DNA from: Bifidobacterium breve
GTDB taxonomy: Bacteria > Actinomycetota > Acidimicrobiia > Acidimicrobiales > Acidimicrobilacustridaceae
Assembly: GCA_945878645.1 (NCBI GenBank)
Contig: CAMCTW010000005.1
Coordinates: forward strand, 1 to 37,283
Direction: 5' to 3'
Length of the DNA stretch: 37,283 nt
Shown here: positions 6,305-31,819 of the stretch, piece after piece
How positions within the stretch are numbered: position 1 is the stretch's first letter
Layout: each line of letters begins with the position of its first letter
Position numbers and translations under genes: made by a program
Notes under the pieces: model-generated
What the model was told of the DNA's origin: nothing
What the model saw: only the letters and a program-made list of their open reading frames with translations
The model's database searches: none

Positions 6305-7489
6305 ATGGCTACGAGCTTCCCGCAGGGATTTCGATGGGGTACCGCGACCGCCGCACATCAGGTCGAGGGCGGAAACTGGAACAACGATTGGTGGGTGTGG
6401 GAACACGCACCGAACACCCCGTGCGAAGAGCCAAGTGGCGACGCGTGCGACCAACTCAATCGCTATGACTCCGATATCGCTCTGTGCGCCGCTCTTGGGT
6501 TCGACAACTATCGATTCTCAATTGAGTGGTCGCGAATTGAGCCCGAACCTGGTGAATTCTCGATTGCCGCGCTCGATCACTACCGCCGTGTTCTGGCATC
6601 ATGTCACGCGCATGGCATTGAACCAGTTGTGACCTTCCATCACTTCACCACTCCTCGATGGGTGGTCGCAGAAGGTGGATGGCACACGGCATCGACGGTC
6701 GATCGGTTTCTTCGCTTCGCCGAGAGGTCAGTGAATCATCTTGGTGATCTGATTGGAACGGCGTGCACAATCAATGAGCCAAATATCGTTTCGTTTGTTG
6801 GCTACCAAATGGGATTCTTTCCGCCAGGTTCTACCGACGATGCAGAGTTCGCTGCCGCAAACGCGAATTTTATTGACGCACATCAGCGCGTAGTTCCGGT
6901 GCTCAAGGGAGGGCCCGGGGATTTCCCTGTGGGTCTTACGTTGTCGATGGCCGACTACCAGGCAGTTCCACCCGACGAGGCTGATGCAATAGCTCGGCGT
7001 AATCACGTTCGTGCGGTCTCCGAAGATCAGTTCCTTGACATTGTTCGTGACGATGATTTTCTTGGTGTGCAGGTGTACAGCCGCACGCGTGTTGGAGCGA
7101 ACAGCGTGTTGGGCGGAGAAGAAGGTGTTCCAACTCTTCCGATGGGTTACGAGTTCTGGCCCGAATCACTCGGTGCATGTTTACGACGCGCGTGGGACTA
7201 CACAGGTGGTTCGGTTCCGTTACTCGTTACGGAGAACGGAATTGGCACCAACGATGATTCCCAGCGAGTCGAGTACGTGCAGCGCGCGCTTGAAGGCGTT
7301 TTGGCGTGCATCGACGATGGAATCGATGTGCGGGGCTACACCTACTGGAGTCTCATGGATAATTTCGAGTGGGCGTTTGGCTATCGGCCTCGATTCGGAA
7401 TTATCGCAGTTGATCGGGCGACGCAACGACGCACAGTGAAGCCGAGCGGGGAATGGTTGAGCGGCGTTGTCCGCGCAAATGCTCTTTGA
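6305..7489 (+). CDS. Glycoside hydrolase family 1 beta-glucosidase
   Basis: FPQGFRWGTATAAHQVEGGN, acid/base TINEPN and nucleophile VTENG motifs. Confidence 0.95.
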   Translation: MATSFPQGFRWGTATAAHQVEGGNWNNDWWVWEHAPNTPCEEPSGDACDQLNRYDSDIALCAALGFDNYRFSIEWSRIEPEPGEFSIAALDHYRRVLASCHAHGIEPVVTFHHFTTPRWVVAEGGWHTASTVDRFLRFAERSVNHLGDLIGTACTINEPNIVSFVGYQMGFFPPGSTDDAEFAAANANFIDAHQRVVPVLKGGPGDFPVGLTLSMADYQAVPPDEADAIARRNHVRAVSEDQFLDIVRDDDFLGVQVYSRTRVGANSVLGGEEGVPTLPMGYEFWPESLGACLRRAWDYTGGSVPLLVTENGIGTNDDSQRVEYVQRALEGVLACIDDGIDVRGYTYWSLMDNFEWAFGYRPRFGIIAVDRATQRRTVKPSGEWLSGVVRANAL

Positions 7490-7569
7490 GACACTGTCGT
7501 CGACTTAGAGCCATGGCCATTGGCAACTAGGGTGATGCGGTCAGGTTCGAACGCGAGGAGCGCCCCGTA

Positions 7570-8073
7570 ATGGGCCACGAAATCAATCAGGAGTTCCCCG
7601 CGTCGTCGCATACGGTGACGCCACTTCCTGAAACCTTCGGGGTCCTCGGAAGGATTGTTTTCTCAATCCGGACTCGTGGGCTTCGTTACGCCCTCGTGGC
7701 CGTCGTCAATGTCGTAGTTGGTCAGAGTCTGCTCCTTGCCCTGCAGGGTGTCATGCGGCCAAGTTGGGCCAATGTGGTTGCTGTCGCTATTTCTGCGGTT
7801 CCTGCCTATTACATGAACCGGGCGTGGGTGTGGGGCAAGCGGGGCAAGAGCCATTGGAAGAAAGAGGTCCTTCCGTTCTGGCTCTTCACGATCGCCGGGC
7901 TGCTTCTTTCGACAATCGCTATCTGGGTGGTCCATCGCTTCACTGATGCCAAGTTGGTCATCAACTTCGTTCAGTTGCTCTCGTTCGGCATTCTTTGGGT
8001 GATCCGTTTCTTTGTTCTCGACAAGCTCTTCCACGTTGAAGTCTTCGAGGACGACACCCCCGACGAGGTCTGA
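7570..8073 (+). CDS. GtrA-family membrane protein
   Basis: GLRYALVAVVNVVVGQSLLLAL ... YYMNRAWVWG ... four TM segments typical of GtrA. Confidence 0.85.
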   Translation: MGHEINQEFPASSHTVTPLPETFGVLGRIVFSIRTRGLRYALVAVVNVVVGQSLLLALQGVMRPSWANVVAVAISAVPAYYMNRAWVWGKRGKSHWKKEVLPFWLFTIAGLLLSTIAIWVVHRFTDAKLVINFVQLLSFGILWVIRFFVLDKLFHVEVFEDDTPDEV

Positions 8074-8077
8074 TCCC

Positions 8078-8698
8078 ATGGATGCAGCAATGAAGGCCGC
8101 TGCAGAAGCGGCAAGAGGGTTTATGCCCCCCGATGAGGGTGTCGCGCTTCATGAAGCGGCGCTGCTGGTTGCCGAGGGTGCGTCACCGATGCTTGAGATC
8201 GGTAGCTACTGCGGAAAGTCGGGGATCTATCTCGGGTCGGCAGCGAAAGAACGCAACACGATCCTCTTTGCGCTTGACCATCATCGCGGTTCGGAAGAAA
8301 ACCAGCCGGGCTGGGAATGGCATGAGCCCGACCTTGTCGATTCTGCAGTCGGCGTCATCGATACGTTGCCCCGCTTTCGCCGAACAATTTATGACGCCGG
8401 CCTCGAAGGAACAGTCGTCGCGCTTGTGGGGGATTCGCCAACGGTTGGTTCGCGCTGGCGAATTCCGCTTTCGTTTTTGTTTATCGATGGCGGTCATGGT
8501 TCGGAACCGGCGCATCGTGATTTCGAACTTTGGACGCCATGGATTGAGTCCGGCGGAATTCTTGCCATCCACGACGTTTTCCCTGATCCCGCCGATGGTG
8601 GCAGACCGCCATATGAGATCTATTGCCGGGCGCTTGAGTCCGGCGAGTTCGTCGACGTTTCAGCGACGGGCTCGCTGCGAGTGTTGCGCCGAGTTTGA
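8078..8698 (+). CDS. Class I SAM-dependent methyltransferase (Methyltransf_24-like)
   Basis: MLEIGSYCGKSGIYLGSAA and LFIDGGHGSEPAHRDFELW motifs. ATG at 8078 lies just after the GtrA stop. Confidence 0.8.
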   Translation: MDAAMKAAAEAARGFMPPDEGVALHEAALLVAEGASPMLEIGSYCGKSGIYLGSAAKERNTILFALDHHRGSEENQPGWEWHEPDLVDSAVGVIDTLPRFRRTIYDAGLEGTVVALVGDSPTVGSRWRIPLSFLFIDGGHGSEPAHRDFELWTPWIESGGILAIHDVFPDPADGGRPPYEIYCRALESGEFVDVSATGSLRVLRRV

Positions 8699-28533: not shown

Positions 28534-29025
28534 TCAATGCTTTCCGGGTACGTAGCGGGCGAGTGATGCCTCGATCTCGGTCCATGCAGCATCTCGACCT
28601 TCGAAGTCGCCGACTTCGGAAAACTTGTCGGGCTCGAGGTCTTTATAAATCGAAAAGAAGTGTTTGATCTCCGCGAGTGTCTCGGCGGGGATGTCTTCAA
28701 TATTCACCGCATCGCGCCAGCGCGGTTCTCGGTGATGGACGCACAGAATTTTGGCGTCACGACCAGCGTCGTCGGTCATCCACAAGACGCCAACGGGGCG
28801 CACGTGAATCCAGCAGCCAGGAAACGTGGGGTCTTCGGTGAGAACGAGAACGTCGAGGGGATCGCCGTCCTCGGAGAGCGTGTCGGGGATGAACCCGTAT
28901 TCAGTGGGGTAGGTGGTGGCCGAGAAAAGGCGGCGGTCGAGGTGGATCCGCCCGGTTTCGTGGTCAATTTCGTACTTGTTGCGACTCCCGCGAGGGATCT
29001 CGACGACGACATCGATGGTTTCCAT
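28534..29025 (-). CDS. ppa: Inorganic pyrophosphatase
   Basis: VEIPRGSRNKYEID, YPTEYGFIPDTLSEDGDPLDVLVL motifs. Confidence 0.96.
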   Translation of the reverse strand: METIDVVVEIPRGSRNKYEIDHETGRIHLDRRLFSATTYPTEYGFIPDTLSEDGDPLDVLVLTEDPTFPGCWIHVRPVGVLWMTDDAGRDAKILCVHHREPRWRDAVNIEDIPAETLAEIKHFFSIYKDLEPDKFSEVGDFEGRDAAWTEIEASLARYVPGKH

Positions 29026-29070: not shown

Positions 29071-29991
29071 ATGGGGATTGTGCGAGACTCACCGACCGTG
29101 ACCACGCTCAAACTGACCTCAACTGATGGTTTCGTCGTTCTTGATCTCGACGATGCTCCGATGGCTATCGGCATTGTTCGCTCGGCACCAAAGGTCCTGG
29201 TCGATGGAGCGAAATGGATGGCTCGTTCGGAGACCTATCGCTACGCGTTTTTTGGCCGCCAGGTTTCTGGAGCTTCTGCAGCAGTAAATGCACCCGTTGA
29301 TGCCAAGGCAGAGGCGATCTCGTCCTTCGCAACTGAATTCGCAGGCGACACGTTCTCCACGGTGCACCTGAGTGCCGGCCGGGGTATTTCGGCCGATGAC
29401 CTTGCCGGTGTTCGTTCGCGTGATCCGCGGCCGGAATCTTGGTGGTCAGAACGCGACGTGCTCACCGCCGCTGGCATCGTTTCTGCAGCAGGACAAGCCG
29501 TGGGTGGACTTTCTGGTCGCACTGTTGCGATCGAAACTTTCGACGCGATGACCGCGTCGCTCGCCGATCTGTTCCGTTCGGCGGGTGCAACCGTGGTTGA
29601 ACCTGATGTTTCTGAAGATGCCAACGCAGTTCTTCATGCCGATGTCGATGTCTTGGTTGCTGGTTCCAAGGTTGGGCTTATCGGCGACGCAAATGCGGCG
29701 AACGTCGTGGCGCGTCTGATTGTTCCAAGTGGCCCAATGCCCGTGACTGCGAAAGCACTTGCTGCATTCGGACGACGAGAGGTGACAGTTCTTCCCGATT
29801 TCGTCACAACCTCTGGTCATCTCGCCGCGTGGCCGATCGATGGCTCATCGACCGATGCTGCTTTGCTCATCGGAGCGGCGATCACACAGGTCATGACTCA
29901 TGAAAAGGGTCCGCTTCTCGGCGCGTGTGAAATCGCCGAGTCATTTCTTGGCACTTGGGCGACGGTTCCATTCGGTCGACCAATCGCCTGA
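29071..29991 (+). CDS. Divergent Glu/Leu/Phe/Val-dehydrogenase-like protein, probable pseudoenzyme
   Basis: C-terminal VDVLVAGSKVGLIGDANAANVVARLIVPSGPMPVTAKALAAFGRREVTVLPDFVTTSGHLAAW matches the ELFV dehydrogenase layout. Catalytic Lys and GxGxxG motifs are missing. Start is ATG 29071 or GTG 29098; the 5' part of the 28660 ORF is antisense to ppa. Confidence 0.65.
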   Translation: MGIVRDSPTVTTLKLTSTDGFVVLDLDDAPMAIGIVRSAPKVLVDGAKWMARSETYRYAFFGRQVSGASAAVNAPVDAKAEAISSFATEFAGDTFSTVHLSAGRGISADDLAGVRSRDPRPESWWSERDVLTAAGIVSAAGQAVGGLSGRTVAIETFDAMTASLADLFRSAGATVVEPDVSEDANAVLHADVDVLVAGSKVGLIGDANAANVVARLIVPSGPMPVTAKALAAFGRREVTVLPDFVTTSGHLAAWPIDGSSTDAALLIGAAITQVMTHEKGPLLGACEIAESFLGTWATVPFGRPIA

Positions 29992-29996
29992 GCGTT

Positions 29997-31391
29997 ATGG
30001 CTACGTCGTCTGGTTTGGTGTGGTTCCGGCGGGATCTTCGTCTTGATGACAACCCAGCATGGTCGGCGGCAACTTCGGAGCATCAGGAAGTCACCGCGCT
30101 TTTTGTTTTAGATCCTGCTTTGTTTGATCGTGCGAGTTCGCGTCGCGTTGCGCGTCTGCTCGGCGACCTTTCCGCACTCGACGAGTCTCTTGGCGAACAC
30201 GGCGGACGTCTCCTCGTTCGTGTCGGCAATCCTGAATCGGTTGTTCCCGAAGAAGCGCGGCGATTGGGTGTGTCAGCGCTTCACCTGAACCACGACGTCA
30301 CGCCGTACTCGATAGCGCGCGACAACCTCGTGAATAAGCGAATCACGGAACTCGGTATCGAGTGGGTCCCCGAGTGGGGAACTTTGGTGCACGAACCCGG
30401 CCGCATCTTCACGAAAGCAGGTTCGCTTTCACAGGTATTTACTCCGTTCTTTCGCGTTTGGGAACGAACGGCATGGTCGCCCTGGCCTACGCAGGGACAG
30501 GCAGAGATCACTGCAGATCCTGGCGATGGAATTCCTCAGTCCGATCGGCCGTATCCGCTGCTCGATGGTGAAACGGGCGATGCCGCTCTTGCCGGTGAAC
30601 GCGGCGCGCAGGCCCGACTTGATCTCGCCATTTCTCGGGCAGATTCCTATGACGGAGACCGCAACACGCCTTCGGTTCTTGGTACGTCGCAACTTTCGAT
30701 TGACCTTCGATTTGGAACGCTGTCGCCGCGCTTTGTAGCGCAGGCCGTGGGCGAGTCAAGCGCTGGCCGTGCAGCGCTTGTTCGCCAACTTGCGTGGCGT
30801 GATTGGTATGCGCATCTTCTTCTTGCAACACCGACGCTTGTTGAGCAACCCATGAAGCCGCAGTACGCGGCAATTCAGTGGCGGCAGGACGACAAGAGTT
30901 TCGAAGCATGGAAGAACGGACTCACGGGTTATCCGTTTGTCGACGCAGGTATGCGTCAACTGAAAGAGACAGGATGGATGCATAACCGCGTGCGGATGGT
31001 TACGGCATCGTTTCTCGTGAAGAATCTGCTCATCGATTGGCGCCGTGGTGAGCGATATTTCCGCCATGTACTTCTTGATGCTGACGTTTCCCAGAATGTC
31101 GGAAACTGGCAATGGGTTGCCGGCACTGGCCCCGACGCATCGCCTTACAATCGCGTCTTTAACCCGGTACTCCAGGGACAACGATTCGATACTGAGGGTG
31201 ACTACATCCGTCGCTGGGTGCCCGAACTTGCAGTTCTTGATGCGAAGGCGATTCACGAGCCGTGGGCGGTTGGTCCACTTGAACTCGCATCTGCTGGCAT
31301 CGAACTCGGAACCGACTATCCGGAACCGATTGTCGATCTTGCGTTTAGTCGGGGTCGAGTGCTTGAGGCCTACGGAGCAGTCAAGCGTTAA
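29997..31391 (+). CDS. phrB: Class I deoxyribodipyrimidine photolyase
   Basis: LVWFRRDLRLDDNPAW, ALVRQLAWRDWYAHLL, GYPFVDAGMRQLKETGWMHNRVRMVTASFLVKNLLIDWRRGERYF, GTGPDASPYNRVFNPVLQGQRFD. Confidence 0.95.
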   Translation: MATSSGLVWFRRDLRLDDNPAWSAATSEHQEVTALFVLDPALFDRASSRRVARLLGDLSALDESLGEHGGRLLVRVGNPESVVPEEARRLGVSALHLNHDVTPYSIARDNLVNKRITELGIEWVPEWGTLVHEPGRIFTKAGSLSQVFTPFFRVWERTAWSPWPTQGQAEITADPGDGIPQSDRPYPLLDGETGDAALAGERGAQARLDLAISRADSYDGDRNTPSVLGTSQLSIDLRFGTLSPRFVAQAVGESSAGRAALVRQLAWRDWYAHLLLATPTLVEQPMKPQYAAIQWRQDDKSFEAWKNGLTGYPFVDAGMRQLKETGWMHNRVRMVTASFLVKNLLIDWRRGERYFRHVLLDADVSQNVGNWQWVAGTGPDASPYNRVFNPVLQGQRFDTEGDYIRRWVPELAVLDAKAIHEPWAVGPLELASAGIELGTDYPEPIVDLAFSRGRVLEAYGAVKR

Positions 31392-31394
31392 CGG

Positions 31395-31697
31395 TCACGA
31401 AGCGCGTGCAGCGTCTTGTACTGATCGACGACTAATTGAACGAGGGGAGTGTCCAGCCGCAGCTCGCTGCTCTTCGTTTTCTCCGCCCCAATATCCGTTT
31501 TCGCGATTGTCACGAGCGAGTTCACGACAAGCAATGTTCACGGGACATGCATCACACATTGCTTTGGCAGCAACTTCGCGGCGTACACGGCGTTCAGGTC
31601 GCTCTCCTGCAACCCCGAAAAACAAAGTGGTTCGACCCTTACACGAGGCGTGGTCCATCCATTCGGGTCGGGCAGTTGCGAGCAGTGTGGATTCCAT
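31395..31697 (-). CDS. WhiB-family [4Fe-4S] transcriptional regulator
   Basis: ASCKG ... MCDACPVNIACRELARDNRENGYWGG (CX2CX5C plus a GYWGG turn). GGAG upstream of ATG at 31697; the ORF extends to 31814. Confidence 0.92.
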   Translation of the reverse strand: MESTLLATARPEWMDHASCKGRTTLFFGVAGERPERRVRREVAAKAMCDACPVNIACRELARDNRENGYWGGENEEQRAAAGHSPRSISRRSVQDAARAS

Positions 31698-31819
31698 CTC
31701 GACTCCAGTGGGGTAGGTGCACCGAGGGAACAGCAGGTAAGCAATTTTGAATTTAGTGCTAAATCCTCTGGCTTCCACTCGGAATCTTGGGAGAATGCCT
31801 GTGTCATCGGCCACAGGCC

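Follow-up and report, generated by a model that had tools for sequence, protein, structure and literature searches.

The window analysed here, a stretch of 37,283 nucleotides, contains an open reading frame whose product follows the layout of the Leu/Glu dehydrogenases, but with other residues where the catalytic lysine and the NAD glycine motif should lie. The question raised by this locus is what such a protein might do: whether its dehydrogenase machinery is really gone, whether the gene is decaying or maintained, and whether it serves a partner or has acquired a role of its own.

Gene assignment and overall fold

The frame at 29071–29991 holds as originally read from the sequence, but its upstream ATG (29071) is not favoured as the start. 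At the position equivalent to 29098 nearly all orthologues have a start codon, which is GTG in most of them, so that GTG 29098 is probably the true start and the protein is likely to comprise 297 residues. There are no internal stops, and no second copy was found in the same genome, making the gene single-copy.

The AlphaFold2 model of the window protein, obtained with a 63-row alignment as input, has a pLDDT of 94.2 and a pTM of 0.91. All 50 matches listed by Foldseek against the PDB are ELFV dehydrogenases (Glu, Leu, Phe and Trp), the best having E = 2e-14, with TMq of 0.62–0.79 among the matches listed. No unrelated fold was obtained, and the predicted structure confirms the two-domain ELFV dehydrogenase fold. 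At the sequence level the relationship is more distant. A PDB search with the window sequence alone gives a weak match to a glutamate dehydrogenase (E = 2e-4), and with a profile of 23 family members the top match, 3aoe_E, has E = 6.6e-17. PF00208 is found in the window protein only below threshold (E = 0.0017; 18.6 bits against a cut-off of 23.4), PF02812 gave no match in the Pfam search, and the NCBIfam GdhB model matches at E = 2e-7, far under the NCBIfam cut-offs. At E<=0.01, 52 of 63 family members match PF00208 and 16 of 63 match PF02812. The similarity to ELFV dehydrogenases is far above chance, and model, Foldseek and profile search together bear out the Leu/Glu dehydrogenase layout. 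Shared with these enzymes (PF02812 plus PF00208) are the fold, the domain order, the GGxR arginine, the LAR..TY helix and the (L)PDF segment; the C-terminal segment noted earlier, ANAAN...VPSGPMPVTAKAL...VTVLPDF, is present from about 29689.

Loss of the catalytic and cofactor-binding residues

The roles of two lysines, an aspartate, an asparagine and a glycine motif are well established for GDH, LeuDH and PheDH. We followed these residues by aligning eight ELFV controls with 103 non-identical proteins of the family. Both lysines, the aspartate and the (A)AN asparagine are present in all eight controls, whereas no family member keeps the TYK lysine, the catalytic lysine or the catalytic aspartate, and the nicotinamide-side asparagine is likewise replaced (Table 1). 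The substitutions that the sequence-only reading had described, TYRYA for TYKNA and SGASAAV for GGGKAVI, are found from 29233 and 29266 respectively, and the survey of orthologues extends them to the whole family.

The dinucleotide-binding motif has had a different history. Where GVGNVA would be expected, the window has TFDAMT (29536–29553), as had been claimed, and throughout the window's genus the glycine motif is wholly lost. Across the family, however, it is degraded rather than lost, its first, second and third glycines being retained in 74, 43 and 45 of the 103 members. The aligned family contains neither a catalytic lysine nor a GxGxxG at shifted positions, and a hidden or shifted copy of either motif is rejected for it. 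Loss of the dehydrogenase machinery, as a property of the family and not a peculiarity of the window genome, is thus strongly supported by the alignment. We infer that the window protein no longer performs amino acid oxidation, and conventional use of NAD(P) is improbable as well.

Table 1. Positions of the pseudo-dehydrogenase gene, its altered or newly conserved motifs, and its flanking genes in the window.
Feature	Coordinates	Strand	Remarks
Soluble inorganic pyrophosphatase, divergent neighbour	28534..29025	-	Pfam PF00719, E = 6e-57
ELFV-fold pseudo-dehydrogenase gene	29098..29991	+	297 aa; conserved start, AF2, Foldseek, dN/dS
RSAPK, R28..K32	29179..29193	+	R28 from ELFV GGxR motif; Lys32 new, 100/103
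ARSETYRYA, formerly substrate-carboxylate TYK	29221..29247	+	Lys gone in 103/103; Arg43 invariant
SGASAAVN, formerly GGxK catalytic-lysine motif	29266..29289	+	Lys to Ser60 in 100/103, Ala in 3/103
SAGRGI, formerly P-D-x-G catalytic aspartate motif	29371..29388	+	Asp to Gly/Ala in 103/103
TVAIETFDAMTA, degraded GxGxxG dinucleotide motif	29521..29556	+	Family alignment
GSKVG loop	29662..29676	+	Lys191: 87 Lys + 10 Arg = 97/103
VPSGPMP, formerly (A/G)ANxP	29722..29742	+	Nicotinamide-side Asn replaced in at least 102/103
PFGRPIA C-terminal tail	29968..29988	+	FGRP invariant in all complete members
DNA photolyase, downstream neighbour	29997..31391	+	Pfam PF03441, E = 5e-86; 5 bp past stop codon

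Newly conserved residues and the C-terminal tail

In place of the lost residues, others have become fixed. Position 32, almost always lysine in the family, is Asp or Tyr in true ELFV enzymes, and position 191 is Arg in the active-looking sister branch described below. Arg43 occurs in all 103 members and is also present in the LeuDH-like controls. Trp287 and the tail residue Arg294 are found in all 102 members in which these positions are aligned. His197 occurs in 88 of 103 but is not retained in the window's genus; the sister branch already has Cys277 and Glu281. The C-terminus is short compared with that of the ELFV dehydrogenases and ends in PFGRP(L/I)A, where the confidence of the model is lowest (pLDDT about 66).

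The mean majority fraction is 0.68 in the N-terminal domain and 0.73 in the C-terminal tail region, but only 0.48 for the first half of the Rossmann domain, suggesting that it is the substrate side and the tail that selection maintains, and not the cofactor motif. Comparison of the window gene with its close relatives gives dN/dS values of 0.075–0.143, and two further family pairs give 0.065–0.076. The family is under strong purifying selection.

Distribution

In a sample of 296 genomes from the class, the family does not extend beyond the window's order: at least 34 genomes match at E<=2e-59 among the matches listed, all of them in this order. The next matches have E-values of 2e-22 and weaker and include ordinary ELFV enzymes; those whose sequences were retrieved and inspected (L180, L181 and L182 among them) keep the active site. 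Among 397 genomes of the phylum, L186 is the sole strong match outside the order. A database scan yielded 144 stretches encoding the family; most of the best 80 of the 144 carry titles of Acidimicrobiia or actinobacterial MAGs. Family genes in L037, L046 and L111 are at most 91% identical to the window gene. No member was found in the viral contigs searched, the only viral relatives seen were GDH-like folds of Pandoravirus, and a PHROGs search gave no match. A literature search, with little coverage of subscription journals, found nothing on such a family.

For the window's genus 21 genomes were examined, and the PF02812 N-domain was found in none of them; several are 98–100% complete, and the window's own assembly is 83% complete. 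The genus thus seems to have no ELFV protein other than the pseudo-dehydrogenase.

Evolutionary origin

In two trees a branch with full support has the family on one side of it, and in both L186, from a rare actinobacterial class, and L205, from Nonomuraea gerenzanensis, group with it with support of 100/100; the ancestry common to all of these excludes the sampled GDH and LeuDH. The two sister proteins share with the family a short N-terminus, a C-terminal AE.F..TW helix and a G-x-P-L-A tail. They differ in retaining the catalytic motifs (TYK, GGAK, Asp, GFGKVG and AAN) and in having PxGPPLA as the tail where the family has PFGRPLA. Further sister sequences bearing an active site were sought, and only these two were found. 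In L205 (2992–4146), DPEGLPDGPPLA stands three times in near-identical form at the end of the protein, whose C-terminal tail has apparently been duplicated in tandem and in frame.

Because the sister branch retains the catalytic residues, a single loss of activity in the ancestor of the family is probable. The first branch within it, L206, has TYT, GGAA and the tail FGRPLP, and lacks both Lys32 and Ser60. The most economical order would therefore be loss of catalysis together with acquisition of the FGRP tail, followed later by fixation of Lys32 and Ser60. The long open frames of L206–L209 were considered as possible gene fusions and rejected, since by eye the extra N-terminal stretch resembles read-through of a high-GC non-coding frame.

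Genomic neighbourhood

The position immediately upstream of the photolyase gene, on the same strand, was correctly noted, and the order in which the family gene is divergent from a pyrophosphatase gene and followed by photolyase recurs in near relatives. As a trait of the family, however, the linkage fails. Photolyase is linked in the same orientation in 21 of the best 80 of 144 loci, mostly near relatives of the window, and in L057 it lies nearby but in the opposite orientation. In other clades the upstream gene belongs to xseA-xseB, or encodes polyprenyl synthase, release factor 3 or an H+-pyrophosphatase. An ancestral operon tadA-ABC-xseA-idsA-prfC-X was considered and discarded, as it is not seen in the earliest branch (L206/L210). 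The neighbourhood is clade-dependent and points to no single partner.

Three unrelated genes linked to pyrophosphate, for soluble pyrophosphatase, H+-pyrophosphatase and polyprenyl synthase, adjoin the family gene in different clades (window 28534–29025; L061, L066, L074, L081 and L094; L063–L078), an association with pyrophosphate metabolism that may be coincidence. A WhiB-type regulator follows directly after photolyase on the minus strand of the window (31395–31814) and in many near relatives. In L210, at about 6502–8175 on the minus strand, a NifU/NfuA-like gene, identified by eye from its translation, is apparently divergent from the earliest-branching member.

Possible functions

We regard it as reasonably probable that the protein is a repurposed, non-dehydrogenase member of the ELFV fold that binds a ligand and acts as a sensor or adaptor. 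Under this proposal, the base of the Acidimicrobiales-type family would have seen one apparent loss of the substrate lysine, the catalytic lysine and aspartate and the nicotinamide-side asparagine, with decay of the dinucleotide motif subsequent to it. The inter-domain cleft would have been retained and re-lined by Lys32, Arg43, Ser60, Asn64 and Lys191, residues whose predicted placement is in the cleft. From residue chemistry and conservation we infer that the cleft may bind a small ligand, probably an anion, and the flexible, invariant PFGRP(L/I)A tail may serve as a lid over it or as a docking motif for a partner; ligand and tail together would provide the sensor or adaptor role. The description of the protein as a binding or regulatory pseudoenzyme thus stands as regards the lost machinery; a binding or regulatory role is reasonably probable, but regulation as a subunit of a canonical partner is improbable.

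The polar residues Ser60, Lys191, His197 and Cys277 could equally fit a new catalytic function. The fold might have been re-tooled for non-redox or otherwise different catalysis through Ser60, Lys32, Lys191, His197 and perhaps Cys277, and the many invariant or nearly invariant polar positions, the strong purifying selection and the seemingly late fixation of Lys32 and Ser60, after loss of the old site, are all consistent with this. There is, however, no apparent substrate or pathway link, the neighbourhood varies, His197 is missing from the window's genus, and Cys277 and Glu281, pre-existing in the active-looking sister, are perhaps structural; we consider a new enzyme a serious alternative, though rather less likely. 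Decay has the least to recommend it. The active site has been lost and the Rossmann loop shortened, as in a pseudogene in progress, but dN/dS values of 0.07–0.14, intact reading frames, order-wide conservation and new invariant residues speak against a remnant, and on the selection signal we reject it as scarcely credible.

Two further alternatives assign the protein to a partner. Thermus thermophilus GdhA is a catalytically inactive ELFV protein with a regulatory role in a hetero-hexameric GDH (PMC9570180), and the window protein might similarly form hetero-oligomers with a canonical GDH or LeuDH, as its regulatory subunit. Besides this precedent, the top match of the family profile, 3aoe_E, comes from the Thermus hetero-hexameric GDH, of which it is the four-chain protein, and a GDH is present in some relatives from outside the genus. 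Both proteins are natural pseudo-dehydrogenases with the ELFV fold and a replaced catalytic lysine (GGAAGG at this site in 3aoe_E), but other residues are replaced, the window protein is shorter, and GdhA has an active GDH partner. In the window's genus the gene is kept and constrained although none of the 21 genomes has the ELFV N-domain; an active partner of the Thermus type is rejected there, and the explanation as a whole is very unlikely. Slightly less likely again is a role as partner or accessory of a DNA-repair protein, either the neighbouring photolyase or another such as exonuclease VII. The 5-bp gap, the gene order conserved in near relatives, and xseA/xseB lying directly upstream in several other clades, in one case overlapping the family gene, would fit such a role, but beyond near relatives most loci have no photolyase gene nearby and the family gene is adjoined elsewhere by those for polyprenyl synthase, release factor 3, H+-pyrophosphatase or others.

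Selectively maintained throughout and with an active-site-bearing sister branch, the family is a clean case of functional replacement in a metabolic fold. Since its scores lie under the Pfam cut-off and far under those of NCBIfam, these models would leave the window protein unnamed. Mutational handles on the new function are offered by the replacement of Lys by Ser and by the invariant tail. There is perhaps an even chance that this order-wide family, having lost its redox chemistry and gained a docking tail as well as a new conserved site, represents an undescribed enzyme or metabolite sensor, the sole ELFV protein left in the window's genus. An old enzyme fold has apparently taken on a new job in one actinobacterial order.
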